The notes beneath the pieces were generated by a model. It did not search any database. It was not told the origin of the DNA and worked only from the letters and a program-made list of their open reading frames with translations. A stretch of DNA of 52,634 nt from a virus: the IMG/VR virus record IMGVR_UViG_3300028831_000041, positions 1 through 52,634 of that record; one strand, given 5' to 3'. Positions 1,222 to 28,630 of the stretch are shown here, one piece after another; the stretch's first letter is position 1, and the number at the start of each line of letters is the position of its first letter. Position numbers and translations under genes: made by a program.

Positions 1222-1388
1222 TATTTTAACTTGGTTAATTGTCCATCAATATATAAACTCCACTCTTTAACTTCTGGAAATTGTTTTTGTAGTTTCTTTA
1301 GCATCTGTTTAGCAATCTTTTTAGTTGGAATCTTAACTCCTTCTGTAATGTTAGGAACTTGACTGTACATGTGTGTCATGCTTTTCAT
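1221..1388 (-). CDS. hypothetical protein (55 aa)
   Basis: The open frame reaches 1439, but the ATG at 1388-1386 is preferred because GGAGAC lies 5-6 nt upstream. The product is 55 residues, Lys-rich, ending YIDGQLTKLK. It overlaps the 3-prime end of the polymerase N-terminal gene by 38 nt in another frame. Function unknown. Confidence 0.6.
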   Translation of the reverse strand: MKSMTHMYSQVPNITEGVKIPTKKIAKQMLKKLQKQFPEVKEWSLYIDGQLTKLK

Positions 1389-2919
1389 CTTGTCTCCAAG
1401 GTATAAAATTAAGTGTACTACTTTCTTTTGCCAATTCACGATATGATAGACAAAGATCTATCACAGGATTATGATGTTTTAGTTTTAGTTTAAGCATAGC
1501 TTTCTTTGCTAATGAGGGATTCTTTTTACCGTCTTGTTTTTGTTTACCATAAGCTACAACGGGATACTCTAACATTTCATGAAAGTATGTACAACATTGC
1601 TTGTTAGATGTTGGCATAGAAGATTTAGATTTGCCAGCGATCATCTTTAGATTGTGTTCTCCTACCAAGTAATTAAGTAGTCGTAAATATTGCATCATCA
1701 TTCTATCATTCTCATTGAGAGTCTTTAGCCTTATATTATCATCATACCGTATTCCCATTAAAGAGATAATAAGATATGGTCTTATTGCTTTCATTGCCAT
1801 ATCTATTGATTCTGTTAATCCAGGAATAGTCTTAGCATAAGTAGTGATAGCTTCATGTATTAGGATCATTGTGTAAACATCTTTACCACAATACTGCCAT
1901 GTTGCTTTTGCTTGTTCATAAGTGGAATATCCTGTTCCACCTTCATCTTTATGAAATGATTCAAATGTCCAAAGTGATGTACAATGTCCTAGAGATTTTT
2001 CTACCTCAGGGTAACAACGATGTTGTGCTATCATTGTGTCGTAACATAGTTTACCAAGTGGTATTCTATATTTCCAAGCAAGAATAAAGAAATCAAATGA
2101 TGCTCCATTATGAGCAACTGTGCAATTATCTCTCATTCCGATAGCCAACGAATGAAGTATATTAGGTAGATTAGAATAAGCCCAGGAACAATCGTGTAGA
2201 AATATAGGTATAACGTATATGGGACTATCCATGCCAAAACTAATACCGATACATTTAAGATCACAACTAGGCACAAAAGTTTCAAGATCAAGATAGAGGA
2301 ACTTGCCTTTCGTCTTTGTAAGAGTTTGTATGATTTCTTCTGATTTTGGGTATATAACATACTCTGGATCAAATGATCTTTTAGGGATGAGTCCATTTCT
2401 TTGTATAATTTGTTTACACTTTTCTATATCTTTACTAATCCAAAAACGGTAGTTGCGCCGCTCGGTTAATCCATGTCGTCTTTTTTCTCCTATTACATTA
2501 TCTGAATCAGGAGAATCAAAATCTTGTGAATAGATGTCATTCTGAGGATTGAATTCCTTTTCATGATTTACTACATCAGCTGCATCTTGTGGAAAGAATG
2601 TTGGTATTACTGGTATGTCCTGAAAATTGAATACTGAACCACGTATTTCACCCAATGAATTATCTTCTACTCTAGTTACATATCTCATCGCAGATTCACC
2701 TAGCGTTAAGATACATCTAGTACCAGGTAATAATGGTTCTACTGATAGAGATTCTTTTAGACGTATATCACATTGATAACGATTAAAGTGTGGTCTTAGA
2801 GATTCATCTATTAGACGACCACCTCCAGCAGATAGGAGTTTTATATTGTCGAACCTACTGGGATTACTTAGGACTAATGTTAATCCACAGTAGCTAAATT
2901 GGGGTTTGTGTCGGAGCAT
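1351..2919 (-). CDS. split family A DNA polymerase, N-terminal piece (UDG-like + 3'-5' exonuclease + thumb)
   Basis: Residues 65-125 (TRCILTLGESAMRY, IPVIPTFFPQDAADV) resemble the UDG-like domain fused to some phage PolA proteins. Residues 205-360 are a DnaQ-type proofreading domain with ExoI DLET (D211, E213), ExoII HNGASFDFF (D276) and ExoIII YCGKD (D347). Residues 365-505 match the start of the family A polymerase domain, including the GK-S and SYRELAKESSTL segments. The protein stops at residue 522, before palm motifs A, B and C; these are in a separate gene at 50881-51924. The two products probably assemble into one polymerase. On the circle about 2.0 kb containing an HNH gene separates the halves. 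Confidence 0.88.
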   Translation of the reverse strand: MLRHKPQFSYCGLTLVLSNPSRFDNIKLLSAGGGRLIDESLRPHFNRYQCDIRLKESLSVEPLLPGTRCILTLGESAMRYVTRVEDNSLGEIRGSVFNFQDIPVIPTFFPQDAADVVNHEKEFNPQNDIYSQDFDSPDSDNVIGEKRRHGLTERRNYRFWISKDIEKCKQIIQRNGLIPKRSFDPEYVIYPKSEEIIQTLTKTKGKFLYLDLETFVPSCDLKCIGISFGMDSPIYVIPIFLHDCSWAYSNLPNILHSLAIGMRDNCTVAHNGASFDFFILAWKYRIPLGKLCYDTMIAQHRCYPEVEKSLGHCTSLWTFESFHKDEGGTGYSTYEQAKATWQYCGKDVYTMILIHEAITTYAKTIPGLTESIDMAMKAIRPYLIISLMGIRYDDNIRLKTLNENDRMMMQYLRLLNYLVGEHNLKMIAGKSKSSMPTSNKQCCTYFHEMLEYPVVAYGKQKQDGKKNPSLAKKAMLKLKLKHHNPVIDLCLSYRELAKESSTLNFIPWRQDEKHDTHVQSSS

Positions 2920-8432: not shown

Positions 8433-8723
8433 TTAAGCAGAGGCAGGAAATTTCTTAAGAGCATAAATATCTTCTCCATCAAACACAGTTAATTCTGTTC
8501 CATTTGGTTCCCATGATAGTTTTGTTCCTAAGTGACAAGGCACATATACTATGTCATATATACTTACTTCGTTTTTATAACGAAACTTTGAACCAACATG
8601 AAACACTTCAGCTTCCACTAATTGTATTCTTCTGTCTTGTGCTATCTCTGGTATTACTATTGTAGAGGATTCTATCTTTTGTTTTTTTACTTCCACTATT
8701 AGAATATCTCCCAATGCTTTCAT
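8433..8723 (-). CDS. GroES-like co-chaperonin
   Basis: The 96-residue product has the GroES layout: MKALGDILIVEV opening strand, a mobile-loop region (about residues 13-30) with the hydrophobic TIVIP tip that docks on GroEL, a YDIVYVPCHLGTK strand and the closing GEDIYALKKF. It would replace or supplement host GroES in folding phage proteins such as capsid, as T4 gp31 does. A sigma-54-type promoter lies about 40 nt upstream of the ATG, separating its control from the AAA+ activator gene next to it. Sequence is diverged, so the call rests on pattern and length. Confidence 0.78.
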   Translation of the reverse strand: MKALGDILIVEVKKQKIESSTIVIPEIAQDRRIQLVEAEVFHVGSKFRYKNEVSIYDIVYVPCHLGTKLSWEPNGTELTVFDGEDIYALKKFPASA

Positions 8724-8763: not shown

Positions 8764-8779
8764 AGCAGGTTTCGTGCCA
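8764..8779 (-). promoter_or_regulatory. sigma-54-type promoter (groES-like gene)
   Basis: Minus strand TGGCACGAAACCTGCT: a perfect TGGCAC -24 box and CTGC -12 box with GG and GC in the required phase. Predicted start near 8753, giving a leader of about 30 nt to the co-chaperonin ATG. It is the only intergenic stretch here. Confidence 0.75.
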
Positions 8780-8792
8780 GGATATATACATA

Positions 8793-8984
8793 TTAATTTT
8801 TTATTTTGTTTACAGTTTTACGAAACATTACTTCTATTTGATCATCTGGTCTGTTTATTGCTATTATATATACGTTACCACGACAAAATTCTATCCACAC
8901 AGCAGGATTATCTATTACAACATCTGCCGGTATTCCTAAACCAGACATTCTTTCAACTACTTTATCATATAATTCTTTATTCAT
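8793..8984 (-). CDS. hypothetical protein (63 aa)
   Basis: Begins in ATGA overlap with the AAA+ activator gene and ends just before the promoter of the co-chaperonin gene. The sequence has a helix (YDKVVERMSGLGIPADVV) followed by strands (AVWIEFCRGNVYIIAINR), a small alpha/beta protein. Coupled to the activator gene, it could modulate it, but nothing in the sequence proves this. Confidence 0.6.
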   Translation of the reverse strand: MNKELYDKVVERMSGLGIPADVVIDNPAVWIEFCRGNVYIIAINRPDDQIEVMFRKTVNKIKN

Positions 8985-9853
8985 ATAGGTAATACTCCTA
9001 ATATCTTATGTCTCTTTACATGTTGTTCTAGTGAACGAACATTTAGTTTTGTATCAAGACCTTTATCTCGTAGATTATATGTTACATTATTTTTAAGTAC
9101 TTCAAGAAATTCTTTACCACCATTCATTGACAGAATAATTGGTTCTATATCTTCTGGTCTTTCATCTAGAGGTGTAGTATATATCTCGAATGTACTTATC
9201 CTTGCATATAGATCGAGACGAAAGAGATTCTTATCACACAGAGCTTCAAGATCTTTATTGGTTGCACATACAAATCTACAATCTATTTCTTCTTCACTCA
9301 GGGAACCAACCTTCATAATTTTCTTCTCTTGTAATGCTCTAAGAAATTTACCTTGTGAGTGCATGGGTAATTCTCCAACTTCATCAAGAAAAAATGTTCC
9401 ACCTTTAGCAGCCTTCATAAGACCATCTCTATCTCGTTCTGCTCCAGTGAATGATCCTTTAGTAGAACCAAATAGAATAGACTCTACAAGTGCTTCAGGT
9501 AATCCTGCACAATTCTGTGCAACAAATCTTCCCTCTCTATTACCATGAAATGCTCTTGCCAATATTTCTTTTCCTGTTCCAGTAGGACCACTAATAAGTA
9601 CTGGTTCATTTAGTGGTGCCAATTTAGCAACATTTTGTTTCTCCTTAATCATAGATTCATTCACAGTAATGAATCTACTTAGCCAAGCTTCTGTTGTATT
9701 AGAAAAATCTATAATACGACAATCTTCTCGCTTCCAAGGTAATTTATTGTCTTTGATTATTCTATCTATCTGTTGCTTTGCTAACTCAAGAACTTGTGGA
9801 TCTTTTTGATTGAGTGCCAACTCTAAATCTTCTTTACGAATTTCTTGGCTCAT
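8981..9853 (-). CDS. stand-alone sigma-54-activator AAA+ domain (bEBP-like, no receiver or HTH)
   Basis: Central domain of a bacterial enhancer-binding protein: Walker A GPTGTGKE (89-96), sigma-54-contacting loop GSFTGA (133-138; canonical GAFTGA, with the essential F and T kept), and Walker B GGTFFLDEVGE (151-161). CATNKDL is sensor I, FRLDLYARIS (211-220) holds the arginine-finger block and NVRSLE (271-276) is the sensor II region. The family remodels RpoN-RNA polymerase closed complexes using ATP. The first 75 residues are unrelated to response regulators, and the protein ends 14 residues after sensor II with no helix-turn-helix. It would therefore act from solution, as reported for DNA-binding-domain-less FlgR or CtcC. 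Matching -24/-12 sites occur throughout this genome. Confidence 0.9.
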   Translation of the reverse strand: MSQEIRKEDLELALNQKDPQVLELAKQQIDRIIKDNKLPWKREDCRIIDFSNTTEAWLSRFITVNESMIKEKQNVAKLAPLNEPVLISGPTGTGKEILARAFHGNREGRFVAQNCAGLPEALVESILFGSTKGSFTGAERDRDGLMKAAKGGTFFLDEVGELPMHSQGKFLRALQEKKIMKVGSLSEEEIDCRFVCATNKDLEALCDKNLFRLDLYARISTFEIYTTPLDERPEDIEPIILSMNGGKEFLEVLKNNVTYNLRDKGLDTKLNVRSLEQHVKRHKILGVLPI

Positions 9854-10227
9854 AGTTTATTTAATTCATTCATTAGTTTTGTTACTGTTTCTAAATCGCC
9901 TTTAGTTATTGCTTCATATACTCTCTGTTGCAAAATCTCTCTAGGCACTTGGACAGCGCTATCAACTATGATAGACTTGACTGAATCTCTATGACTTTGT
10001 AAAGTCTTTTCTAAATTGGAGCGCCGCTTCTGTTCATTAATCCAACCAATGACTGGATACCAGATACGCCATATATCATGTTGTGATTCTTCTACATGAC
10101 AATAAACATTATTAGTATCTGTTGCTTTAAATGAAGATGCCATTGATACTGGAAGATCAACATACTCGAACAGTTTATTGTATGTGAGAATATTTAGAAG
10201 TTCTTCTATGTCGCAGGTTATATTCAT
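9850..10227 (-). CDS. hypothetical protein (125 aa)
   Basis: Helical protein: an N-terminal segment (CDIEELLNILTYNKLFEYVDLP), a Trp-rich middle (DIWRIWYPVIGW), then a basic helix (NEQKRRSNLEKTLQSHRD) and a C-terminal helical pair. It overlaps the activator gene by 4 nt (ATGA), so the two are translationally coupled and may work together. No family recognised. Confidence 0.6.
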   Translation of the reverse strand: MNITCDIEELLNILTYNKLFEYVDLPVSMASSFKATDTNNVYCHVEESQHDIWRIWYPVIGWINEQKRRSNLEKTLQSHRDSVKSIIVDSAVQVPREILQQRVYEAITKGDLETVTKLMNELNKL

Positions 10228-10427
10228 TTCAGTAAAGACTTAAGATCATTTATGACATTTTTATAAACTGTAGCCGTTATTAAGTATTCTTTTGCTAAAG
10301 ATTCTTCTCCGTTGTTAAGTGCTTTTAAAGTCCATTCTGAATATTTCTTTTGAAGATCTTTATACGAATCTAGCAGACTTTGTACTAAATCATCTTTAGT
10401 TATTCTTAATTGTTTTAGTTTAGCCAT
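10224..10427 (-). CDS. hypothetical protein (67 aa)
   Basis: Helical (VQSLLDSYKDLQKKYSEW and a closing NDLKSLLK). Two in-frame ATGs exist: 10439 inside the helicase gene and 10427 just after its stop. The latter has GGAAAA a few bases upstream and is preferred, but either is possible. Function unknown. Confidence 0.58.
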   Translation of the reverse strand: MAKLKQLRITKDDLVQSLLDSYKDLQKKYSEWTLKALNNGEESLAKEYLITATVYKNVINDLKSLLK

Positions 10428-10428
10428 A

Positions 10429-12612
10429 TTATTTTCCATTTTCTGTTGTATCTATATCACCTAGTATTTCTTCATCTTCTTCTGTGATAGGTTCTTTCTC
10501 CTCATAAGTATATCCTCCCATGATTATACCTTCCCAAGATTCTTTTTGTTGTACTACCTTTGAGAGACACTTTAATTTCATTGAGACAACTTGAGCAACT
10601 TGTTCTTCAATGGTGCCTGCAAAGAATATTAATTGCTGGGTTGTATCCGACAATGATGTAAGTCTTGGAAATCTACCTAGACCTTGCACCATTTCAATAG
10701 CACTCCATGTTGGTGCTATAAATGACTTACGAGGTCTAGTAAGTATTTTTGAAATATCTTCTTCATAAGCATATCCACTTTCTTTATGTCTGACTTTTTC
10801 TTGACTAAATTCGTCTGTGTGATGTAGTGATAATCCAACACCTCCTGCCCTAAACGTATAGAAACAATACAATGAATCTCCTTTTTGAAATCTATCAATT
10901 TCATTTTGTCTTTCTTTTAATGTTTGTATCCCTAATTTAAGTGTTTCATCATCAAATGATTCTTCTACTTTTGCTTCTACATCTTCAAGAGATAACATAT
11001 CCATTGTGATGCCAGCTTCTTCTAGTGCTTTTAGAAGATCATCTGATCCTTCTATTGCTGCTTTTGTTTTTTGTTTTTCTGTTGCTTTTGTTTGTCCACC
11101 TCCCCAGATTATACTTATCTTCTCTCTAGGAATCTTATAATCTTCACAAAGCATCCTAATACATTTTCGTATTGTAACTTTAAAGTTGACTGCACATCCA
11201 GCAGCATATCCATTATTGGTAGCATTTACCATTTGTTCACACAAGTATTTTATACGATCTGGATTAGATTCTGCTGCTATACGATACTGTAACATTGCTA
11301 CCAATATACAGACATTCTTCTGTCCAGCATTAATTAGTCCTTTTGCTTCCTTTGCTTCTGCTTTAGATTTCTTCTTTAGAAATTCTTCAATAGCTTTATC
11401 ATAGAATTCTTTTCCTTCTTTTGTTTGAAAGTCTATAAGAAGAACAGAATTCTTAGCATGAAATTGTGGCTTAACTCCTTTCACACGTACTATGAAATCA
11501 TTCATTACATCCATTAAACGTTCCATTGCTCCAGGAGAATGTTCGTAGGGATTTGCTGGTGATGCTACATATTCTGCGAAAGTCTTCCAATGTTTATTCT
11601 CTAATTCACATTCTATAAGTGTAGCTTTTGTATTTCTGATGCGTGTTGCCACACAAAAGCACTTTGCTTCTGAAACTTTTGTGAATGGTGTAGCACTTAG
11701 AAAAATTTGATAAGTGTTAGGAAGTTCATTGAATGAAGCTGCTATCTTTGCTTGTTGTGTTCCTTCATTCTTCAGAGCTTGACATTCATCCCAAGCTATA
11801 AAACACGGATTAATCATTGGTCGCCAAGACCATTGTGTGTATTCCATGCCATGTTCTATCTTCAGTTTTTCATCTACAAATAGTTCACCAAACTTAGAAC
11901 GTAATTGATCTATATTAATAACAAGAATATCTTGTGGATGCCTTAGACCAAAAAATTTTTCAAATACTCGTTTTGTTTGTTCTACTACACTAGCCTTTGT
12001 TACGTAAATATAGGGCCAAGGTGCAATAGAACCAACTTTAGTATGCCAGTTTGATTCTCTTAGTCTAGCTATGACCGCACCCATTATGAATGTTTTACCA
12101 TAGCCTGCATTAGCTATTAGGAGCTGACCACGTTTATTATCATTTGTAATACCACTTAATAATTCACGGGCTGCTTTATGTTGAAACCAAAATAAGAAAG
12201 ACTTGTCTTTAGAACAGAATGGTAACTTATAATGTTTCTCTAAATTAATTGATGTATCTATTACAGTTGATAAAGGTTCTTCTGTAAAGATTAACTTAGG
12301 TGTTTCTGATTGTTTTAATAAAGCTTTTTCCTCGTCAGTAAGCTTAATAACTGGAGGATTATTCTTTAACCAAATAGAAGTCTCAAGTTCGATCTCCCTA
12401 TCTTTAAGCCATTCTTTTATTTCATTAAAGGAAATCTTCTCCCCATACTCATGTGGAAAATATTTTTGTTTTATCTGCTCATCACTGTAGCCAACTATTC
12501 GTAGTAGATCATAGAAAGTTTGAATCTTTCCAAAAGTGTAAGCAATTTTAATGCGCTGTGAGATTACCTTTAGATGATCTCTTGCTTTTCTATTCTCCTC
12601 TATGTTTGTCAT
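10429..12612 (-). CDS. SF2 (SNF2-type) helicase/ATPase
   Basis: Walker A ANAGYGKT (167-174), a DEAD-box-type WDECQ (about residue 275), motif III SATPFT, and a C-terminal RecA lobe with FYTFRAGGVGLSLHH and a QGLGRFPRL motif VI-like arginine segment followed by GTIEEQVAQ. This is the motif order of SNF2-like SF2 enzymes, which translocate on duplex DNA. The 727-residue length is large for a phage helicase; the N-terminal 140 residues and an insert with VEESFDDETL are family-specific. Likely roles are replication or recombination DNA unwinding, or DNA remodelling. Confidence 0.85.
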   Translation of the reverse strand: MTNIEENRKARDHLKVISQRIKIAYTFGKIQTFYDLLRIVGYSDEQIKQKYFPHEYGEKISFNEIKEWLKDREIELETSIWLKNNPPVIKLTDEEKALLKQSETPKLIFTEEPLSTVIDTSINLEKHYKLPFCSKDKSFLFWFQHKAARELLSGITNDNKRGQLLIANAGYGKTFIMGAVIARLRESNWHTKVGSIAPWPYIYVTKASVVEQTKRVFEKFFGLRHPQDILVINIDQLRSKFGELFVDEKLKIEHGMEYTQWSWRPMINPCFIAWDECQALKNEGTQQAKIAASFNELPNTYQIFLSATPFTKVSEAKCFCVATRIRNTKATLIECELENKHWKTFAEYVASPANPYEHSPGAMERLMDVMNDFIVRVKGVKPQFHAKNSVLLIDFQTKEGKEFYDKAIEEFLKKKSKAEAKEAKGLINAGQKNVCILVAMLQYRIAAESNPDRIKYLCEQMVNATNNGYAAGCAVNFKVTIRKCIRMLCEDYKIPREKISIIWGGGQTKATEKQKTKAAIEGSDDLLKALEEAGITMDMLSLEDVEAKVEESFDDETLKLGIQTLKERQNEIDRFQKGDSLYCFYTFRAGGVGLSLHHTDEFSQEKVRHKESGYAYEEDISKILTRPRKSFIAPTWSAIEMVQGLGRFPRLTSLSDTTQQLIFFAGTIEEQVAQVVSMKLKCLSKVVQQKESWEGIIMGGYTYEEKEPITEEDEEILGDIDTTENGK

Positions 12613-13115: not shown

Positions 13116-13706
13116 TTATGCTAGAACCTTAACTCCAGCAGCAGTAGTAGGAGTAGGCTTTTCTGGTTCTTCTTCCTTAGTCTTTTGCTTCAGAATAAGC
13201 TGCTCTTGACAATACTTGATCCGCTCAGCAATTTCTTTGAACTTTGCTTTCTGAGCTTCTGGATCAGTAATAGTTCCAGAAAGAATAATGTTCTTGAATT
13301 CTTCCTGAAGATTACTAAGTTCTTCTCGCAATGATGCCATCGTTTCACCGCGTGCACTGAAGTTAGCAAGACCATCAAGGAAATCCTTAACCGAAAATGC
13401 CTTAGTAGGATCAGTCTGCTTCTCATCAATACTGGACTTAGTGATATTAACACTAGTCTGTGCTACCTTCTGATATGCCAGTTCTAGCACTTGATCAAGA
13501 CCAATCCAAGCAAGGAATTTTTGTTTTCCTTCCTCATCTTTTGGTTTGATAGGCTTCAATGCGAATCTATCAGGAGAATCCTTTTCCAATTTTCTAGTAG
13601 AACTGGCTTCACATGGCCATTCAATTCCATTCCTTGTAGAGATTACACTATCTGGAATGATTGCCTCGATTTTCTTTCCGTCAATTTCTTCGATTGTTTT
13701 TGGCAT
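13116..13706 (-). CDS. hypothetical protein, own sigma-54 promoter (196 aa)
   Basis: A soluble protein with a charged N-terminal third, a coiled coil near residues 120-170 (ASLREELSNLQEEFKN; KAKFKEIAERIKYCQEQL) and a Pro/Thr-rich tail (EKPTPTTAAG). By eye its codons are richer in C/G at third positions than neighbouring genes, as in highly expressed phage proteins. It sits alone between a sigma-54-type promoter at 13864 and the hairpin at 13059, so it is probably an abundant product. No family recognised. Confidence 0.75.
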   Translation of the reverse strand: MPKTIEEIDGKKIEAIIPDSVISTRNGIEWPCEASSTRKLEKDSPDRFALKPIKPKDEEGKQKFLAWIGLDQVLELAYQKVAQTSVNITKSSIDEKQTDPTKAFSVKDFLDGLANFSARGETMASLREELSNLQEEFKNIILSGTITDPEAQKAKFKEIAERIKYCQEQLILKQKTKEEEPEKPTPTTAAGVKVLA

Positions 13707-13862: not shown

Positions 13863-13878
13863 AGCATGGAACGTGCCA
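13863..13878 (-). promoter_or_regulatory. sigma-54-type promoter
   Basis: Minus strand TGGCACGTTCCATGCT: consensus -24 box, TGC -12 box, correct phase between GG and GC. Predicted start near 13852 and a leader of about 146 nt to the ATG at 13706. It lies immediately after the stop of the 39-residue gene. Confidence 0.75.
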
Positions 13879-15193: not shown

Positions 15194-16083
15194 ATTTTAA
15201 TTTCTGGTGGAACATCTCCATCATGTAATATCTTGTATCCTGTGTATGCTATCCATTTTGCCATCAAATCTAGTTTATCGGTATAAAGCATTGTGGAAAG
15301 TTTGTATTCAGTAAGATCAAATGTTCTAAACCAATCACCACGAATCATTAGATCACATTCTATCTCTGAGACAATACTTGTTCTTGTGTCATTACGTCCA
15401 AGAGACTTATTGACTGCCCAACTAAAAGGAAAATCTTTATATTGCGAAGCTATCCAAAAGTGTAGATTTGTTAAGTCTATTGATGACTCATAATTAAGTT
15501 TGAATAATGTAACACCATCATTTTCTGAGGAGCCAAGCCATCCTTGTTGTATCCAAACTTCTACTGGAGCATAACGTTGCATCAGAACTATAAGTGCACC
15601 AATCACATAAAGATTATCATCAGCATTTCCCCACCAAGCAACATCTGTATTTATCAGTATTCTATATGCTCCATCACCTGTTCCGCGTTTTACTTCTAAT
15701 TCCTCACTAGACTTGCGATTGAAGCAACACTTTTCTTCACCACTTAATATGAGATCTGCCGTAGTTGTAATTCCATTTTCTTCCCTAGTGTATCCTTGTT
15801 TTGATTGTGAGAATGATGGAACTAGATCATCTACCATTCCTAACAATGTTTCAATTCGTTCTTCTGCATCCCTTTGAAATTCAATGTTTCCAGTTGTTAT
15901 ATCTTTACAGGCTTGATCAAGATTATTCTTTAAATTTCCTACCATTGTATCATCTAATCTATAAAATTCTTTTGTATTGAAGAACTTATCTTTTGCATCT
16001 TTAGCTAATTGAATTGCTTGTTCCTGACTATCAAGTATAATTGTGGTGCCACCATTATTTGTTGGTGATTTGTAAGATTTCAT
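15190..16083 (-). CDS. phage DUF7192-like protein, likely partner of the CobS-like ATPase
   Basis: The central stretch DLILSGEEKCCFNRKS is followed about 14 residues later by GAYRILINTDVAWWGNADDNLYVIGALIVLMQRYAPVEVWI. This matches the shape of a phage family (DUF7192-like, from memory) that is usually encoded beside MoxR/CobS ATPases: a Rossmann-like, von Willebrand A-resembling fold. The nearby AAA+ gene fits such a pairing. It might be the adaptor that delivers substrates to the ATPase. The family name was not checked by search. Confidence 0.55.
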   Translation of the reverse strand: MKSYKSPTNNGGTTIILDSQEQAIQLAKDAKDKFFNTKEFYRLDDTMVGNLKNNLDQACKDITTGNIEFQRDAEERIETLLGMVDDLVPSFSQSKQGYTREENGITTTADLILSGEEKCCFNRKSSEELEVKRGTGDGAYRILINTDVAWWGNADDNLYVIGALIVLMQRYAPVEVWIQQGWLGSSENDGVTLFKLNYESSIDLTNLHFWIASQYKDFPFSWAVNKSLGRNDTRTSIVSEIECDLMIRGDWFRTFDLTEYKLSTMLYTDKLDLMAKWIAYTGYKILHDGDVPPEIKI

Positions 16084-16289
16084 AACAGGATTGTTTTCTC
16101 AATTACTTTTGTGTAAATGGCTTTAATGTCTGTTGAACCTGTCATTTTCAATAGTTTTGCTTGTCCTTCTACAAAGTCTTTCAATTCTGATTCTGAGGCA
16201 AATCGCTTCATCACAAATCCACCACATTTATGCCCATTAGGTAACATATAAGTTAGTGTCTTAAGCTTAATGACTTTTATTTCACTCAT
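16080..16289 (-). CDS. hypothetical protein (69 aa)
   Basis: Lys-rich, with strands at both ends and FASESELKDFVEGQAKLL as a helix. Its stop overlaps the next gene's ATG (ATGA). Lies between the CobS-like gene and its presumed partner and could be part of that complex; unproved. Confidence 0.55.
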   Translation of the reverse strand: MSEIKVIKLKTLTYMLPNGHKCGGFVMKRFASESELKDFVEGQAKLLKMTGSTDIKAIYTKVIEKTILL

Positions 16290-16325
16290 ATTGCTTGGTG
16301 CTATTCCCCGCTTGCTTGCGCGTAA

Positions 16326-17600
16326 TCAAATGGAAAACTTTCCGCAATTCTGGAGTATATTAGCCTTCACATCATTGTCAATAAGTTGAAAGATACTTTT
16401 CTCAGCAATCTGTTCAGCAGTAGATTTACCTTGTTTAATAAAGGCTGCTCCACGTCTTATTGCTCGTGTTGTTATGTAAATTGTTCCTGCACAATATTCA
16501 TTACAATATTGTCGCACTCTATGACAATATGTTGACCATTCTATATTACCTGTCATCTGTATTGAAATATCGTGCTCAATGTGTTCATCATAGAAGATCT
16601 CATGCATCGTAAATCTATTGAGCGTAGATGCATCAATCTTATTTCGTATAAAGCCACGTGTACTACCAGTGCCCTTTGTATTATCTGCAACTACAAGATA
16701 GAAATCCTTGTGACGCTCAATGGTTTCATTATTTCCAAACGTGTAGAACTTATTTTCAAGAGCATTACAAGCTCCAGTAATTACCATTGCATCACAAGCA
16801 CAAATTTCATCAATACACAATAGTCCACCATCTTTGTAAGCTTTATATGCAAGTCCAGGTATGAAACTTCCAGTAGCAATATTATTATAGCCAACAATCT
16901 TTCCTTCTGTAACTGTTGGTCCACCTTGAACTGGATACAACGGAACATTTAGTGCTTGTGCAAGATGCTCAAACATCATTGTTTTACCACAACCTGGCGC
17001 TCCATATAGGTAAAGAAATTCAGAATAGCCATTGCTGTTCCGTGCAGTAAGATCATTTACTATCTCAGGGACTTGATAATGATGCCTAGTTAGTGTAATC
17101 TTTTGTTCCTCAGAATCATACTTATGATTAACTATGAGAATCTCAACACGTTTCTTGGTTAATTGATCTCGAAGATCAACCAGTTCATTCTCGCGTTCTG
17201 AGATAGTATTGACTAACTTCTGATTCTCAAGATTTTCATTATTTAGTTTATTCTGAAGCTGATCTAGTTCATTCTTATATAGTTGTTCTAATTCTGAATC
17301 AAAAGCTTTATTTATAGTTTCTTGTGCAGGTTTAATTTCAGCATCCTGATTAATACAAAGTTCAAGAGCTGTTAAGACTTTACTATAATTATGAATTTTT
17401 GTAAGTATGTCAATGCTGAAATCATTATGATACGTCACTAATGATTTATGATTACTGCCAGCACAAATCTTCTCGATTGTCATTATGCGAGATTCTTCAT
17501 CAAGCTTTTGAATCTCTTTTGACAATCTAACAAATAGACCTGTTATATCAAATTTTGTTTTGGTTTGAGTTCCTGTTACTGAAGGAAATGTCTTGTGCAT
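16326..17600 (-). CDS. CobS/MoxR-like AAA+ ATPase
   Basis: A coiled coil at residues 95-155 precedes the AAA+ core. The core has Walker A GAPGCGKT (200-207), a DGGLLCIDEICACD Walker B near 250-262, VVADNTKGTGS as sensor I and FIRNKIDASTLNRF carrying the arginine finger. CobS/MoxR members remodel or insert metal into partner proteins; phage versions are common but their substrates are unknown. The 16080 and 15190 genes, directly downstream, are probable partners. A sigma-54-type promoter lies about 50-65 nt upstream of the ATG. Confidence 0.85.
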   Translation of the reverse strand: MHKTFPSVTGTQTKTKFDITGLFVRLSKEIQKLDEESRIMTIEKICAGSNHKSLVTYHNDFSIDILTKIHNYSKVLTALELCINQDAEIKPAQETINKAFDSELEQLYKNELDQLQNKLNNENLENQKLVNTISERENELVDLRDQLTKKRVEILIVNHKYDSEEQKITLTRHHYQVPEIVNDLTARNSNGYSEFLYLYGAPGCGKTMMFEHLAQALNVPLYPVQGGPTVTEGKIVGYNNIATGSFIPGLAYKAYKDGGLLCIDEICACDAMVITGACNALENKFYTFGNNETIERHKDFYLVVADNTKGTGSTRGFIRNKIDASTLNRFTMHEIFYDEHIEHDISIQMTGNIEWSTYCHRVRQYCNEYCAGTIYITTRAIRRGAAFIKQGKSTAEQIAEKSIFQLIDNDVKANILQNCGKFSI

Positions 17601-17651
17601 AATCTTGTAACACTATCTAAATCCAAAGCGCAGTTGACTATGCCTCAATAA

Positions 17652-17667
17652 AGCAAAAATCGTGCCA
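17652..17667 (-). promoter_or_regulatory. sigma-54-type promoter (CobS-like operon)
   Basis: Minus strand TGGCACGATTTTTGCT is an exact match to TGGCAC-N5-TTGC. Predicted start near 17641, with about 40 nt of leader before the AAA+ ATG. It lies in the only gap (17601-17701) between that gene and its neighbour. Confidence 0.8.
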
Positions 17668-17701
17668 GCAATATATACTAACACGAGCTTTGATTTATTT
17701 C

Positions 17702-17911
17702 TTAAAGGCAAATATTTATTCCGTTGAATGGTTTCCTGATTGTTTTTCTATCCTTATATGCAAAAGGAACTTCGCTTTGCACAGGTTTCTCAAATTTGAT
17801 AGAAAGCATCTGCTGATGTGTTAACTCTGGAGCGCTGTCTAGAAGCATTTTAAAGTCGCCTAGATATGAATTGAATTTACTCTGAGTGACTGTTTTGGAT
17901 TCTTTGTTCAT
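17702..17911 (-). CDS. hypothetical protein (69 aa)
   Basis: Starts MNKESKTVTQSKFNSYLGDF, with an acidic-then-basic helical middle (LTHQQMLSIKFEKP) and KDRKTIRKPFNGI at the end. It is transcribed away from the regulatory gap that holds three sigma-54-like sites. Monocistronic by layout; function unknown. Confidence 0.6.
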   Translation of the reverse strand: MNKESKTVTQSKFNSYLGDFKMLLDSAPELTHQQMLSIKFEKPVQSEVPFAYKDRKTIRKPFNGINICL

Positions 17912-17997
17912 TGTGTTTTTCTCCTATTTTCAATCATGCGGATTGTTTACTGCGTTGCATGACTGAAATTAAAATAAATTTCTAATCAATTCATTTG

Positions 17998-18013
17998 TGG
18001 CACAAAATTAGCT
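17998..18013 (+). promoter_or_regulatory. sigma-54-type promoter, plus strand
   Basis: TGGCACAAAATTAGCT: canonical TGGCAC, and TAGC with GC in phase. It fires toward a minus-strand gene, so it could make an antisense or non-coding RNA. Downstream sequence (AGGGTCGTGATATATTC) is copied at the opposed site at 18245. Confidence 0.6.
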
Positions 18014-18141
18014 CAGGGTCGTGATATATTCCCCCCATTTTCGTTTATCCTTATTTTCTATGAATTATTCTCAATATATATTTGATATATATATAGTATA
18101 GGGGAGATTTAATACGTATATATTCCCTCGCGATTTTTTGC

Positions 18142-18157
18142 AGCTAATTCGATGCCA
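18142..18157 (-). promoter_or_regulatory. sigma-54-type promoter, minus strand
   Basis: Minus strand TGGCATCGAATTAGCT: TGGCAT -24 box and TAGC -12 box, correctly spaced. It would start near 18131 and give a leader of about 220 nt to the ATG at 17911. Shares GGCATCGAAT-AGCTG with the site at 18245. Confidence 0.55.
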
Positions 18158-18243
18158 ATTTTTAGGGTCGTGAGGAGAGCTTTTGAGGGTGTGATTTTTG
18201 AAAACGGCCTAACCGAAATTGCCAAGAATATATCAAAACCCTC

Positions 18244-18259
18244 AGCTTATTCGATGCCA
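18244..18259 (-). promoter_or_regulatory. sigma-54-type promoter, minus strand
   Basis: Minus strand TGGCATCGAATAAGCT: TGGCAT and AAGC in the required phase. Its downstream 17 bases (GAGGGTTTTGATATATTC region) copy the plus-strand unit at 17998, so the two face each other across about 200 bp. Confidence 0.55.
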
Positions 18260-18309
18260 AAATTTTGTTTAATCTTTCAAGATTTTGGTGGGGGTTCCTC
18301 GTTTTTTAC

Positions 18310-18564
18310 TTAAGTGCGATTTGGAAAGTGCTTCTCAATCGGAACATTTGACTTAATCCAACTTTTACGAAGAACTTGTCCATAAGCCATCGCCCTTCCC
18401 TTTACAATAGAACGACCTTGCTTCCAACAAGTAGGACGATTTTTCTTCGCATTATGGAAAGCAAGTAACCTTTGAAATTCTTCACGTCTTGTTGTCTTGT
18501 GGACTGGAGCTTTACGAATTGCTTCCCAGGCTTCTTCTTGTTTTGTCGTTGTCATAGAAGTCAA
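18310..18564 (-). CDS. basic hypothetical protein (84 aa)
   Basis: Ser/Thr-rich N-terminus then helices (KQEEAWEAIRKAPV; TTRREEFQRLLAFHNAKKN) and a basic tail (KHFPNRT). Net strongly positive, so a nucleic-acid role is possible. MTTTKQEE (three codons in) is an alternative start. It is flanked by regulatory gaps on both sides, suggesting its own transcript. Confidence 0.6.
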   Translation of the reverse strand: MTSMTTTKQEEAWEAIRKAPVHKTTRREEFQRLLAFHNAKKNRPTCWKQGRSIVKGRAMAYGQVLRKSWIKSNVPIEKHFPNRT

Positions 18565-18892
18565 CTTATCAGCTGAATTCTATTACAAGAGTCCTTGCAC
18601 TCATCCAATTTAGTTAGCTCTACGGTTACATCATTCCAATGATGCTTTAACTTCCTCAGAAGCCCTGAGCTTTTTCCTTATTTAACTATTAGATTTACAC
18701 AAGGGCAGTGCGTTACTGCGTTTAATAAGTAAGTGATTGCTATCTCCCTTAGCTTACTAGCTTGCTTGCTTACTTTCGTTAATACAGTGTAAGAACTACT
18801 ATTTCAGCATTAAAATTGTCAAAGAGCTTTACAACGAGAAATTGTCTTGGAGTAGTAGAGTATTTCATCTACTACTCCAAGTATGGTCTGGA
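18565..18892. other. non-coding gap between two single-gene units
   Basis: No reading frame with coding character on either strand. Near its left part an imperfect GCAGT/ACTGC repeat (about 18705-18720) is seen; the right end holds the 18846-18881 terminator hairpin. I saw no tRNA. A minus-strand promoter for the 84-residue gene should lie here but I could not identify one confidently. Confidence 0.5.
18846..18881 (-). terminator. strong hairpin downstream of the 148-aa gene
   Basis: Perfect 14-bp inverted repeat CTTGGAGTAGTAGA/TCTACTACTCCAAG with an 8-nt loop, starting 12 nt beyond the stop codon at 18893. Only a weak U-tract follows on the minus strand. Together with 13059-13092 it is the second long hairpin placed directly after a sigma-54-driven gene. 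Confidence 0.68.
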
Positions 18893-19339
18893 CTACTTAG
18901 CCAAAACTTGTTTGGAAGCCCAGTAGGCACACTCATCAGTGTATTTGACAAGTTGTTCCTCAAGAGCAGGAACATTGCGATCTTCCAGCAATCCTTCCAT
19001 GTATAGTGCATCAATTTGTTGACACACACGGACAAGAGACATACTCTTGGTAGTGATGATTTTACCACCCCCACGGATTGTGAGTCTGCTAAAGCCATCC
19101 TTAGCAGCTTTTCCAACTTTAGACGCCAGTTCAGCACTGGAAGCCATAAGGCGACCAATATCAGAACCATAATCCACGGCACATTTGTGAGCGACTTGTT
19201 TATCAATCCCACAATGAACCATTGTCGAGAAAGCATCAGCTTGGAACCTACCAAGCATACCGGCAAACTTGCCGATAATGATAACTTTAGACGGTTCTAC
19301 TTGAGTTTGTGCAACTGGTGCATTTGTGATTTCTGGCAT
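18893..19339 (-). CDS. hypothetical protein, first gene of leftward block (148 aa)
   Basis: Begins MPEITNAPVAQTQVEPSKVI, then helical and Ala/Gly-rich segments (KFAGMLGRFQADAFS; GRLMASSAELASKVGKAAKD) and a C-terminal ECAYWASKQV helix. AAAGGATAG upstream of the ATG is a good ribosome site. Codons are visibly richer in G+C than the surroundings. A sigma-54-type promoter about 145 nt upstream and a hairpin downstream make this a single-gene, probably abundantly expressed unit. No family recognised. Confidence 0.72.
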   Translation of the reverse strand: MPEITNAPVAQTQVEPSKVIIIGKFAGMLGRFQADAFSTMVHCGIDKQVAHKCAVDYGSDIGRLMASSAELASKVGKAAKDGFSRLTIRGGGKIITTKSMSLVRVCQQIDALYMEGLLEDRNVPALEEQLVKYTDECAYWASKQVLAK

Positions 19340-19492
19340 AACTATCCTTTGGTTGACTACACTTTACGGGTGCACCAAACATGGTTACACTTTGCCGTAA
19401 AGTAAAGCAAGCCATAATCACTGTGAAAGCATACGCAATGCATTGCAAGGCGATGCAGTCCAAACTGTATTTCAAAGAACTGCAACACATAG

Positions 19493-19508
19493 AGCAGATC
19501 AGATGCCA
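19493..19508 (-). promoter_or_regulatory. sigma-54-type promoter (148-aa gene)
   Basis: Minus strand TGGCATCTGATCTGCT: TGGCAT -24 box, CTGC -12 box, correct spacing. Predicted start near 19482, leader about 143 nt. Confidence 0.68.
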
Positions 19509-19523
19509 CGTCCAGACCACAAT

Positions 19524-19556
19524 ATATGGTAGTCTTTTATCTTGACTATACCATAT
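19524..19556. other. hairpin in the divergent region
   Basis: ATATGGTA (19524-19531) pairs with TACCATAT (19549-19556) and is extended by GTC/GAC after a 2-nt bulge. It could act as an operator, or as a structured leader element if upstream promoters exist. Confidence 0.45.
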
Positions 19557-19909
19557 GTAGTATGCCAGTGTCTCATTTTTAGAGTCTAACAATGATACAT
19601 GCATAAGTCATTGATTATCAATGAATTAGACTGTCCTATTCGTGGAAGTCTGTTTTGTGGACAATAGTTGACTAGTCATCTACTACGCTTCGCTGGCAAG
19701 TCAAGCGTCTTTGTTTTACTTTGTATTGCAGAGTAATCTGTATCAGAAAGTAGCTTGTGATACAAAGTAGAGAACCGATGTCCAGAAAAAGATTCGAGCG
19801 CCTGCACATATACTCTCTCACAAAATTCCCAAAATCAATTACCCCTATCTCTATATACCTACAATCCTCCACTAAAAGTATAATCTAGAACAACACTATT
19901 AAACAAAGT

Positions 19910-19925
19910 TGGCACAATTCTTGCT
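19910..19925 (+). promoter_or_regulatory. sigma-54-type promoter of the late (rightward) block
   Basis: TGGCACAATTCTTGCT preceded by T, a textbook TTGGCAC-N5-TTGC match. GG at 19911-19912 and GC at 19923-19924 place the start near 19936, next to the first late ATG (19938). Confidence 0.85.
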
Positions 19926-19937
19926 GTCACAACCTTG

Positions 19938-20126
19938 ATGAATAGTATTGCAACTAAAAAACTTGACTCTATTAAATTTGAGGAACAAGAAGAACATTTT
20001 CGCATTAGACAAATTATTGAGTCAACAGGGCTTTACAGTTTGTTAAAGTCCACAGAAAAACTGACAGATGAGGAATTTGATAAAGAATTTACTGTGTTGC
20101 ACAAAGTTGCTAACATTACTGAGTAA
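19938..20126 (+). CDS. first late gene, hypothetical (62 aa), possibly leaderless
   Basis: ATG at 19938 (a TTG lies just before). The product is helical: KFEEQEEHFRIRQIIEST and LKSTEKLTDEEFDKEFTVL. No ribosome-binding site is visible upstream. The predicted sigma-54 start is at about 19936, so the mRNA would be nearly leaderless. Followed by a small hairpin (20131-20151). Function unknown. Confidence 0.6.
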   Translation: MNSIATKKLDSIKFEEQEEHFRIRQIIESTGLYSLLKSTEKLTDEEFDKEFTVLHKVANITE

Positions 20127-20130
20127 GAAG

Positions 20131-20151
20131 TATCATAGCTGTTCTATGATA
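20131..20151 (+). other. short hairpin after first late gene
   Basis: TATCATAG, CTGTT loop, CTATGATA: an 8-bp perfect stem 4 nt after the stop codon. No U-tract follows, so it more likely stabilises or processes the mRNA than terminates it. Confidence 0.45.
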
Positions 20152-20217
20152 TTAAACAAATCGGTTACTTTGCTATTACTCATGTGATTGAGTGCAACAC
20201 AGTATTAAACTTACAAT

Positions 20218-20337
20218 ATGAACTTTTTACGAAAACAAAACTTCTTTAGACCATTTCTAAATGAAGGTATGACAGATTGGGGTGCTCTTATGGTAGCTTG
20301 GTATGGATTTGTGAATGATGCACAGCCAAAGGATTAA
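20218..20337 (+). CDS. small hypothetical protein (39 aa)
   Basis: ATG at 20218, TAA at 20335. Basic start (MNFLRKQNFFRPF), then a Trp-rich segment (MTDWGALMVAWYGFVNDA). Ends 17 nt before the terminase small-subunit-like ATG. Short, but the composition looks coding. Confidence 0.5.
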   Translation: MNFLRKQNFFRPFLNEGMTDWGALMVAWYGFVNDAQPKD

Positions 20338-20354
20338 CATAGGAGATTATTCCT

Positions 20355-20768
20355 ATGACAGCAGCAAATCAACAAATTGTAACAGCATTTGAGGAATTAA
20401 ATCTAACTCCTGAGCAAATCTCAGAAGCATTTGGATTTAATATTCTTGCTGTCAAGTCTGTTCTTTCTCAGTTCTCCTCTAAATTTAAAAGCGCGGTTAA
20501 ATCATCTAAGAATTCTGGATTTACAGATGATGAAGCTGAAGAAATGTATTCCATCATTCTTAATCTTGCACGATATAGTGATGATGAAAATCTTCAGTAT
20601 AAAGCTGCATGTCGTATCATAGATGATAAAAAGGGGCGGCTCGACATTGTAAATAATCAGCCAGGATTGCAAATCAATGTAGTAACATTTAATGAGCAGA
20701 TGCAAAAAGCTCTAAATGCAGAAAGACGTACACTTGAGATAAAAGATGTGGAGGAAGTAGCAGCGTGA
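20355..20768 (+). CDS. putative terminase small subunit
   Basis: 137 residues with an N-terminal helix-turn-helix-like segment (LTPEQISEAFGFNILAVKSVL) and a helical, acidic middle (TDDEAEEMYSIILNLARYSDDENLQYKAACRII), the usual layout of phage TerS, which binds the packaging site. GGAGAT precedes the ATG at good spacing. The large terminase subunit gene follows after two tiny genes. Call is by position and shape. Confidence 0.65.
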   Translation: MTAANQQIVTAFEELNLTPEQISEAFGFNILAVKSVLSQFSSKFKSAVKSSKNSGFTDDEAEEMYSIILNLARYSDDENLQYKAACRIIDDKKGRLDIVNNQPGLQINVVTFNEQMQKALNAERRTLEIKDVEEVAA

Positions 20769-20851
20769 TGATTTTTGGAATAATGTTATTCATTGTGGCT
20801 ATTCTTGTGTATGCTTTTACTTCTGATGATGACACTTATAGAAAGAAGTAA
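20768..20851 (+). CDS. tiny membrane peptide (27 aa)
   Basis: ATG overlaps the terS stop (TGATG) and its own stop overlaps the next ATG (TAATG). The hydrophobic stretch IFGIMLFIVAILVYAF is followed by an acidic end (SDDDTYRKK). A single-span peptide; function unknown. Confidence 0.5.
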   Translation: MIFGIMLFIVAILVYAFTSDDDTYRKK

Positions 20852-20997
20852 TGCAAATAGCATTATCAATCAAGTATAATGCTTTTGATGGTTCAGTTGA
20901 TCTCACTGAACTAAATAAGTACTTAAGTGATGGATGGAAAGTTATTCTTACAGATGTAACAGGATTTACAGTCATAGTAATCCTAGAAACACTTTAG
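20851..20997 (+). CDS. hypothetical protein (48 aa)
   Basis: ATG at 20851, stop directly before the terL ATG. Strand-rich: SIKYNAFDGSVDLTEL, WKVILTDVTGFTVIVILETL, likely a small beta protein. Tight spacing with both neighbours supports it; function unknown. Confidence 0.55.
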   Translation: MQIALSIKYNAFDGSVDLTELNKYLSDGWKVILTDVTGFTVIVILETL

Positions 20998-22716
20998 ATG
21001 GAAAATCAAGTATCAACACTTATCAAGGAGGTGAGGCTAACTCCATCTTTGGTTGACGCTTCTTCTAATAACAAAGGTAATGCTGAGAAAGATTTTCCAT
21101 CTTCTTTTTTATATGATGGTGATAGAGTAGATAATACTCCTCCGCCAACAGGAGAATATCAGAAGTTCGAGTTTCCTAATCCCTTCATTCTAGTTTGCTT
21201 CTTCGATAAATCAATAGCAGATGGTTATGTGACACTTCATCCTTGGCAACGTGATGTCAATGTAGAACTTGCAGAGGCGAAACCTACATCTAAGAATCCA
21301 TGTAAATACGTTCTTCTTGCTAATAATGGCTCAGGAAAAGATAAATTCATAATAGCACCCTTCTCAGTTTGGTTCACACTAACAAAGATTCGTAGTCGCA
21401 TCATTATTACTACTTCATCTGGTGTTCAACTTACTTCTCAAACAGAGCCATATATTAAAGATCTGTGTGAAAAAGTAAATGCACATTTTGGCCAAGAAGT
21501 CTATCGTATAAGACAACGCTACATTAAGTGCATACTTACTGGTTCAGAAATAAGAATGTTTGCAACTGATGAGAAAGGGAAGGCAGAAGGTTATCATCCA
21601 ATAGATGCACACTCTGAGATGGCAATTATTGTAAATGAAGGAAAGAGCGTAACAGAAGATATACATGAAGCTCTACGAAGATGCACTGGTTTCAATTATT
21701 GGATAGAAGTATCATCTGCTGGAGAACCTAAAGGCTTCCTTTATAAAGCAGTAACAGATCCGCGCTTTGGATTTAAGAACAAAAGAATAACATCATACCA
21801 ATGTCCACATCTCAATAAAAATGAAATAGAAACTGATAAACTTGATCTTGGAGAGCATTCTGCTTTCTTTCGTTCTAAGCATCTATCACTATTCACTTCA
21901 ATAGGCGGACAATCAATCATACCCCTAGAATTAATACAACAACTTTTAGATAATCCTCCAGTTCATCAATTTCAGCATTGGCCAAAAAGAGTGGGTATTG
22001 ATCTTGCTGCTGGTGGTGATGAAAATGTAATTTGTATCACACAAGGCAACTATGTAGTAAAAGAAATCTGGTTTCGTGAAACAGATACAACTGTTGCTGC
22101 TATGCGCATTTTCCAGATACTACATGATGAGAAGATAGATAAAAATAGTGAACATATCTATGCTGATGATGGTGGAATAGGTAGAGGTATCATAGATCAA
22201 GTTAATGCTTTTGGATATAATATCAATCGTGTAATGAATCAATGGGCGGCGCTTGGAGATAAAAAACAATTTGGTAATAGAGGAGCATCTAATTGGTTTC
22301 GTGTGAAACGGATACTAGAGGAAAAACTGTTTGATATTTCAGGACTTTCTAAGATTACGCTAGATCAACTTAGTCAGCGCAATTATAAACAAACTCTAAC
22401 TGGTGGACGAATATTTCTTGAAGCAAAGAAAGAAGCTAAAGCACATGGCAGACTATCACCTGATAGAGCTGATGCATTTATACTTTCCCTAACAGGACTT
22501 ACAGTTGAAGATTTTATGAAGAATGATAACAAAGAAGTAGAGACTGAGGCGCGGCAGCGAGGACAACTTCTACCAACACCTGATGCTGTACTTAATTGGT
22601 ATGAAGATAACGAGACGTACTCCAATTACTCAGACAAGATTTTTGATAGTAAACGTTCCAACGTAAAACGTTCCAACGTAAAACGTTCCCTTAAAGAGAC
22701 GCTCCTCAAAATATAA
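20998..22716 (+). CDS. terL: terminase large subunit
   Basis: Walker A-like LLANNGSGKD (residues 106-115) follows HPWQ, the usual adenine-contact entry of large terminases. The translocase strand RIIITTSSGVQL and an acidic VNEGKSVTEDI region follow. The nuclease lobe starts RVGIDLAAGGDENV (about residue 335) with IYADDGGIGRG and SPDRADAFILSL as its later acidic sites. The 572-residue size is normal. It packages DNA into the procapsid through the portal. The C-terminal tail contains a KRSNV tandem repeat. Confidence 0.92.
   Translation: MENQVSTLIKEVRLTPSLVDASSNNKGNAEKDFPSSFLYDGDRVDNTPPPTGEYQKFEFPNPFILVCFFDKSIADGYVTLHPWQRDVNVELAEAKPTSKNPCKYVLLANNGSGKDKFIIAPFSVWFTLTKIRSRIIITTSSGVQLTSQTEPYIKDLCEKVNAHFGQEVYRIRQRYIKCILTGSEIRMFATDEKGKAEGYHPIDAHSEMAIIVNEGKSVTEDIHEALRRCTGFNYWIEVSSAGEPKGFLYKAVTDPRFGFKNKRITSYQCPHLNKNEIETDKLDLGEHSAFFRSKHLSLFTSIGGQSIIPLELIQQLLDNPPVHQFQHWPKRVGIDLAAGGDENVICITQGNYVVKEIWFRETDTTVAAMRIFQILHDEKIDKNSEHIYADDGGIGRGIIDQVNAFGYNINRVMNQWAALGDKKQFGNRGASNWFRVKRILEEKLFDISGLSKITLDQLSQRNYKQTLTGGRIFLEAKKEAKAHGRLSPDRADAFILSLTGLTVEDFMKNDNKEVETEARQRGQLLPTPDAVLNWYEDNETYSNYSDKIFDSKRSNVKRSNVKRSLKETLLKI
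22651..22689 (+). repeat. 15-bp tandem repeat in terL tail
   Basis: AAACGTTCCAACGTA repeated twice and then 9 bases of a third copy. It encodes KRSNV-KRSNV-KRS. Each unit contains the palindrome AACGTT. Could be a packaging site or protein-length variation; not tested. Confidence 0.7.
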
Positions 22717-27143: not shown

Positions 27144-27159
27144 TGGCACGATTTAAGCT
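27144..27159 (+). promoter_or_regulatory. sigma-54-type promoter (capsid unit)
   Basis: TGGCACGATTTAAGCT: exact TGGCACG -24 box, GC in phase at the -12 box (AAGC rather than TTGC). It lies 3 nt beyond the exonuclease stop. Predicted start near 27170 gives a 126-nt capsid leader. Confidence 0.75.
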
Positions 27160-27295: not shown

Positions 27296-28630
27296 ATGCC
27301 GTTAGCACAAATTCCTGCGATTGATGCTAATGTCTGTTCTGGATGGACAGAACAAGATGTTAATCTATATAATCGCTTAGACTTCTATCTTGCAAAGATG
27401 CAGGTAGAACGTAGAAAAACATGGGTCACTTGGAATAAGTTTACTGGTAAACGCAAGTGGCAACCAAACATGGGTCCAACAATGCGAGCTGTTACGAAGG
27501 AACCTTCTCCACATATTCGTCAGTTTGCATTTCCAAATGAAATATCACAAGCTCCAAGGAAAGATGTGATGGATGTTAGGGAACGTAGAATTGATGAACA
27601 AGTTTACAGACATCGCTTTGAGAGTAATGTCTTAAATTTTGTACCATCATTTCGTGATTTTCTAACAGATCATGTTGATGCTTGTGGAAAAGATATTATG
27701 GAGAAACAAGAGCGTTTTGAGGATATATTTACTCGTGGACGTATCTTTCATCGTTCTCCTTATATTTGGGTAGTAGGTGCTGCTGTTGATGCAAATGGAG
27801 AAGCAGAACTTAAACATGCTCCAACAGGAATTGGTAATGCTGCTGGAACTGATGGTAAGACTACTGCTTTTCTACAACAGTTAGCTCCTCAAATTGGACC
27901 TGCTGGTAATCTAGGATTTCTCACACTTAACAAACTTGTTACTGCTGCTGAGAATGATATTAGAGCAGTTCCATTTAAAGGTTCAGATCTTCCAAAAGAG
28001 GATCAAGGAATGTCTAATCAATTCTGTCTTGTTTGCTCTTCTGAAGCATATAATCAATTTACATTTGATCCGTATCTTCAGGCAAATAAGAACTGTGCTC
28101 TTGATGTAGTAAATGATCGTTTTCGTGGTTCTTTGTTTGGTCGTATTACTTGTCTTATTGAGGATAGACCACTTAGAATGACTAAAGATGGAACATTTCC
28201 TGCTCCTGAAGTACGTGTTGTAGGTGCTAATCCAGCTCCGCCTAATGCTGGTCCTAATGCTTATGACAATATTGGTGAATCTATTCCAAATGTTGGTTAT
28301 TCATCTCTTGATGATAATAATGGTTGTCCTTACGAGATTGCATTTCTTGTTGGTGCAGAAGGATATGAACAATTAGAAGTTGGTCCTCCTCCTGCTGCAT
28401 TTGCTGGAAATGGTATGCCAAAAGGATTTGGTAAAATGTTTTGGAATGGTGAAGTTGAAATTACCAAGAACTTCCTTGTTCCTTGCTATGATGATGCTGG
28501 TAATCTAGTTTGGGAAACTAACCAATATGGCGAGTATCTTAAGTTCATCTCTCAAGTTACTTATGGACTTCTTACTAAGCAACCTCGTTTCATTATACCA
28601 ATTCTATTTAAGCGAAAGAGGGGTCAATAA
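27296..28630 (+). CDS. major capsid protein
   Basis: The 444-residue product has an N-arm ([17 protein letters not shown]), strongly conserved-looking core strands and a C-terminal strand region. It is placed behind a scaffold-like gene and driven by its own promoter-like element with a structured leader. A terminator-like hairpin closes the unit after one more gene, consistent with the highest-expressed virion protein. The fold was not verified, so HK97-type is only the default expectation. Confidence 0.72.

Follow-up and report, generated by a model that had tools for sequence, protein, structure and literature searches.

The window analyzed here, the whole stretch of 52,634 nucleotides of the IMG/VR virus record IMGVR_UViG_3300028831_000041, contains a region (17998-18259) in which two similar sigma-54-like sites face each other and a third lies between them. 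This arrangement raises the question of whether the phage uses promoters of this class and, if so, what these sites would transcribe. Sequence comparisons make it quite probable that the phage family runs its later genes from the host sigma-54 RNA polymerase with an enhancer-independent activator of its own and that the cluster belongs to this network, in which it would be a modest, unproven part.

Structure of the site cluster

The plus site, TGGCACAAAATTAGCT (17998-18013, +), scored 12.4 bits and has a predicted start near 18024, and the minus sites TGGCATCGAATTAGCT (18157-18142, -) and TGGCATCGAATAAGCT (18259-18244, -) scored 13.1 bits and below 9 bits, with predicted starts near 18131 and 18233, respectively. 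The first-pass annotation had counted 26 identities in the first 33 bases of the plus unit and the 18259(-) unit and had listed a third, minus-strand site at 18142. Realignment gave the same count, the third site was present, and the similarity of the two units extended to 53 nt. They belong to an inverted repeat with a left arm at 17995-18047 (+), which holds the plus site, and a right arm at 18210-18262 (-), which holds 18259(-); the arms match at 39/53 nt (74%). This repeat is above chance: the best match in 300 dinucleotide shuffles of 17601-18900 was 33/53, and among 79 tiles of the window only this repeat reached at least 37/53. The cores of 18259(-) and 18157(-) are direct repeats (20/23) with a diverged downstream half (5/33), and 17998(+) and 18259(-) are inverted repeats across both the core and the downstream half. 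Judged from these alignments, the cluster is the product of two overlapping duplications, one direct (18259-/18157-) and one inverted (17998+). All three copies retain TGGCAY-N5-WAGCT; their -24 halves fit, and their -12 boxes are TAGC, TAGC, and AAGC, not TTGC.

The cluster is flanked by ORF 18310-18564(-) and ORF 17702-17911(-). The latter, a 69-aa ORF with no homolog in 19 relatives, is the first gene downstream of both minus sites, at distances of 246 and 348 bp. Downstream of the plus site, there is no gene before 19935/20355, and both have a stronger site of their own. Because the late genes have the stronger site 19910(+), no gene is left for the plus site, as the first-pass annotation had remarked. 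The facing pair could possibly produce overlapping RNAs, with a predicted overlap of about 210 nt; the plus site may be a relic or may serve to make antisense RNA. When the two predicted RNAs were folded, the z values were -2.1 and -2.5, to which we attach no meaning. A terminator scan of 16200-21000 found four candidates compared with 2.4 in shuffled sequences, including a weak plus-strand one at 18287-18303. Blastn of the cluster region against the phage collection gave no match, and a tRNA search found none; no Rfam family reached the gathering score in the window, and nothing credible was found in 16000-21000. We also weighed a mobile element bounded by the 53-nt repeats, but inspection by eye showed no convincing target-site duplication at the ends.

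The motifs AGGGT..TGATATATTC and AGGGT(C)GTGA could instead be bound by a protein of the phage, and the promoter cores would then be either passengers or targets, although we consider this unlikely. TGATATATTC occurs just twice in the window, once in each repeat arm, and AGGGT(C)GTGA is represented by AGGGTCGTGA at 18015 and 18164, its only two exact occurrences, both inside the cluster, and by AGGGTGTGA at 18186. All three copies that had been placed between the facing sites are thus present, but the first is inside the plus unit. However, the 10-mer was not enriched in the window at up to two mismatches (15 found versus 16.8 expected), and AGGGTNNTGATATATTC, which was found in 99 stretches of viral_contigs, was never in register behind a full -24/-12 site, so that these matches look like chance. 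A replication origin, which had also been proposed, would lie in an AT-rich stretch between inverted repeats; 18050-18125 is indeed 80% A+T, and the GC skew has its minimum near 20 kb. We regard an origin as very improbable: the skew turns where gene direction turns and its signal is therefore confounded, there is no iteron array, and the cluster has no counterpart in the relatives examined.

Sigma-54-type sites across the window

Sites were scored with a matrix trained on the exact-pattern sites of 19 relatives, with the window left out. The window contained nine sites of at least 12 bits compared with an average of 0.8 in shuffled sequences; the best reached 23-24 bits, and the cluster sites were the weakest of the set. 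The strong site TGGCACGATTTTTGCT (17652-17667, -; 23.0 bits) lies 67 bp before the AAA_5 ATPase ORF 16326-17600, and the strong site TGGCACAATTCTTGCT (19910-19925, +; 24.4 bits), a probable late promoter, lies 445 bp before the putative terS (20355). TGGCACGAAACCTGCT (8764-8779, -; 17.8 bits) follows the activator gene at a distance of 202 bp from its end, with a GroES-like gene 56 bp further on; TGGCACGTTCCATGCT (13863-13878, -; 14.0 bits) lies 172 bp before ORF 13116-13706, and TGGCACGATTTAAGCT (27144-27159, +; 13.8 bits) 152 bp before the conserved late gene. A site that is weak by the matrix, TGGCATCTGATCTGCT (19493-19508, -), stands 169 bp before ORF 18893-19339, which has homologs in the related records G004, G009, and G015; 19508(-) shares the downstream GTTCTTTGAAAT with G008 and G009. 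Two of the nine sites, 28744(-) and 30957(+), are within late ORFs and may be chance matches. The three cluster sites might likewise be chance look-alikes outside the sigma-54 network of the phage, given the background of the shuffles, and since they are related by duplication they count as about one event. This explanation is improbable in our judgment, because the sites are intergenic, the phage carries an activator, and stronger sites stand on both sides (17667- and 19910+).

Conserved site positions in relatives

Relatives in viral_contigs were found by terminase and late-gene queries; the late-gene and terminase alignments brought 11 and 38 viral-contig loci, respectively, which overlap. 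In the window, the terminase large subunit gene (20998-22716, +) was recognized by its similarity to annotated ones. The conserved late gene (27296-28630, +) encodes a putative major capsid protein, a label given by position only. The late gene had no Pfam or PHROG match, its structure model (pLDDT 39.5) was too poor to judge, and neither it nor the portal had phage homologs by tblastn. The labels "capsid" and "portal" therefore stay positional, as does that of the putative terS.

The exact pattern TGGCAYN5TTGCW had 108 matches in 36 records versus 2 for the reversed pattern, and 31/36 records had at least one match. Site positions were then counted in the window and 19 of the 35 other records, picked for length and spread, with the longest non-overlapping ORFs, uncurated, as genes; G024, G026, G027, G028, G030, G031, and G034, all above 49 kb, are absent from these counts. 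Judged by shared site sequences, G015/G017, G013/G014, G030/G034, and G032/G033 look like near-duplicate pairs, none of which is paired within the 20. In 20/20 records, the conserved late gene has a site 123-177 bp ahead of it (other strand, 1/20), a count for which the matrix is partly circular in the 19 training relatives; training did not include the late-gene sites in the window, G001, G006, G007, G009, G016, G021, and G032. As a check, an untrained consensus at 10/11 letters or better placed a site before the late gene in 19/20 records versus 91/1244 for other genes and 0.45% for shuffled upstream sequences. Within 700 bp after the activator gene, a site in the same direction was present in 19/20 records, with G021 as the exception, and on the other strand in 0/20. 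Before the putative terS, a site lay within 260 bp in 8/17 records and further out in others, including the window. No site preceded terL (0/19), the portal (0/20), the activator (0/20), or the tail genes (0/20). This pattern suggests that the left arm makes the activator and that sigma-54 promoters then turn on the rest.

In several records, a minus-strand site lies to the left of terS; its -12 box is TAGCT in G007, G008, G020, and G023, and 19508(-) is probably its counterpart in the window. Behind this minus site and before the next gene, G006 and G007 share a near-identical stretch of more than 200 nt (L100:11878-12300, -; L103:12176-12600, +), possibly a leader RNA or a regulatory region. 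The stretch matched no Rfam family, and its predicted fold in G007 was unremarkable (z -0.16).

What is conserved among the relatives examined is the promoter class and not the repeat to which the first-pass annotation had drawn attention. In 19 relatives, none of the tiles compared to the left of terS resembled the inverted repeat (best 28-37/53; one tile each for G013 and G016, whose records begin close to terS), and its 18-nt core had no exact match in viral_contigs. As far as tested, the repeat appears private to the lineage of the window. Facing pairs are rare (3/20 records): G032 has an unrelated one in the same region (38746+/38916-), and that of G004 (24450+/24590-) is partly within a late ORF. 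Within the repeat, identity is about equal in the core (12/16) and after it (25/34), so the core shows no sign of special constraint. By these comparisons, the cluster arose when weaker sites of the sigma-54 class were duplicated in the lineage of the window and, as far as tested, only there. It could also be a recent segmental duplication without function in an otherwise real network, with at most one minus site in use. The weak -12 boxes, the score of 18259(-), the evenly kept core and flank, and the absence of the repeat from the relatives' tiles and of its core from viral_contigs are in favor of such a duplication. However, all three copies have kept their -24/-12 pattern, the minus sites lie ahead of an ORF, and TAGCT -12 variants recur left of terS in the four records named above; we therefore hold a functionless duplication to be plausible but doubtful.

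The phage-encoded activator

The sigma-54 activator gene of the window (8981-9853, -) encodes a 290-aa AAA+ protein that matches PF00158 (E 3e-54) with 183.6 bits versus a curated cut-off of 20.2. The protein has a GSFTGA loop, which is of the GAFTGA type, and the Walker motifs GPTGTGKE and FFLDE; the loop is retained in most homologs and altered in L004, L087, L081, and L143. A C-terminal HTH is typical of sigma-54 activators and absent in group 5, and a motif at the position of NVRSL precedes the DNA-binding domain in ordinary activators. The sequence of the phage protein ends soon after NVRSL, and no HTH family was among the 13 Pfam families matched by the 28 aligned members (that of the window and 27 others), all of which matched PF00158 at E 0.01 or better. 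The 27 homologs are 245-314 aa long, and about 60 residues without a Pfam match lie ahead of the AAA+ domain in the protein of the window. Its structure model (pLDDT 92.6) matched the AAA+ structures of FleQ, FlrC, NtrC1, and PspF, and the closest in PDB were the FleQ, NtrC-family, and PspF AAA+ domains. The first-pass annotation was thus right about the promoter class: the phage encodes an activator, and genes of the window and of its relatives are preceded by sites that fit better.

The activator was present in 26/33 relatives' records, namely, all 25 of at least 45 kb and one of 25 kb, and the 7/33 records without it are fragments below 37 kb. Two further records comprise a 53.7-kb one with the activator and a 5.9-kb fragment without it. 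The sigma-54 gene rpoN was absent from 27/27 records (window and relatives). Activator divergence in 20 records correlated with that of the late gene, portal, and helicase (Spearman 0.36, 0.49, and 0.73, with 2, 0, and 0 of 2000 permutations reaching the observed value, respectively). This parallel divergence suggests that the activator has long resided in the family and was not captured repeatedly. When viral_contigs was searched with the activator or the AAA_5 ATPase as a single protein, no relatives were found. Tblastn with the activator against the phage collection hit 65 records, many of which are bacterial contigs or host-like regulators by label; H53, the one inspected, is unannotated. 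The activators of the window (7e-36) and G001 matched phrog_7998, a family with no function assigned there.

A search of genome_contigs with the late-gene alignment found nothing, and one with the terminase alignment found a single contig, the 49.9-kb L143 (JAKLES010000002.1). It comes from a Deltaproteobacteria MAG that has rpoN, a weak hint at the host. L143 belongs to the phage family and carries the activator and the late gene; its late-gene site scored 27.4 bits, and the contig was outside training.

Proposed regulation and comparison with known systems

We propose that host sigma-54 RNA polymerase would occupy the -24/-12 sites of the phage and wait there as a closed complex. From the left arm, the phage would express a minimal AAA+ activator that lacks a DNA-binding domain. 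The activator would open the closed complexes from solution with no need of an enhancer and so switch on the conserved late gene, the terminase operon, and the genes that follow its own. Most likely, the minus copies of the cluster would transcribe ORF 17702-17911 in the same wave, and the plus copy would either give an RNA antisense to the leader of this ORF or be a decaying copy. A bolder version can be put forward tentatively, its chance falling a little short of even: the family would capture host sigma-54 with a one-domain solution activator that fires host sigma-54 promoters along with the phage late promoters, as a side effect or on purpose, and the facing promoters would add antisense RNA only in that wave.

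Sigma-54 normally waits for a host signal, and what was unexpected here is an apparent family-wide sigma-54 network with its own activator. Other phages are known to control late genes through sigma factors or RNA polymerases of their own or through Ogr-like activators. As in those systems, a phage product would turn on the late promoters; here, however, sigma-54 would be borrowed, and the phage would supply only the ATP-driven opener. Among open-licence papers, we found none on phage late genes under sigma-54, an absence that is weak evidence.

According to a review, FlgR and CtcC are bacterial enhancer-binding proteins without a DNA-binding domain, and FleT alone among known activators lacks both side domains (PMC7175178). 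As described there, these proteins and the phage activator are alike in having an AAA+ sigma-54 core with a GAFTGA loop and no HTH. Because its approximately 60 N-terminal residues have no Pfam match, the phage protein would share the architecture given for FleT in that text. Unlike FlgR, CtcC, and FleT, the phage activator is encoded by a phage family, has 245-314 aa with no known regulatory domain, and has phage genes as predicted targets. DctD250, an engineered AAA+-only activator, is reported to fire sigma-54 promoters without enhancers and, like the phage activator, has no regulatory or DNA-binding domain (PMC3844500). By analogy with DctD250 as portrayed there, we infer that the phage activator acts from solution. 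DctD250 is a laboratory truncation, whereas the phage proteins occur in nature and have been conserved. Phage phi1422 also carries a regulator of this kind, a "sigma-54-type regulator" for which co-option of a bacterial gene was proposed; in the portion of that paper available, however, it is the sole carrier in a group otherwise lacking the regulator, and no sigma-54 promoters before phage genes are reported (PMC3391216).

If our reading is correct, the laboratory tool DctD250 would have its equivalent in nature in a phage lineage with an unlocked activator, and sigma-54 would be an added route to middle or late control in phages besides phage sigma factors and RNA polymerases. The sigma-54 status of the host would then be a predicted limit of host range. 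The phage activators would also provide compact proteins for work on enhancer-free sigma-54 opening.

Other genes of the window

The AAA_5 ATPase ORF 16326-17600(-), which matches phrog_249, sits behind the strong site 17667(-) and had no homolog in the 19 relatives analyzed. A GroES-like co-chaperonin gene (8433-8723, -) lies directly behind the sigma-54-type site that follows the activator gene. Two genes from the activator, a 71-aa ORF (10224-10439, -) has a weak, below-cut-off match to PspA/IM30; PspA is the partner of the sigma-54 activator PspF. Two ORFs, 1351-2919(-) and 50881-51924(-), cover different parts of the phrog_17 (DNA polymerase) profile, 628-954 and 968-1231, respectively, as if a DNA polymerase had been split into two genes, and both have homologs in relatives.
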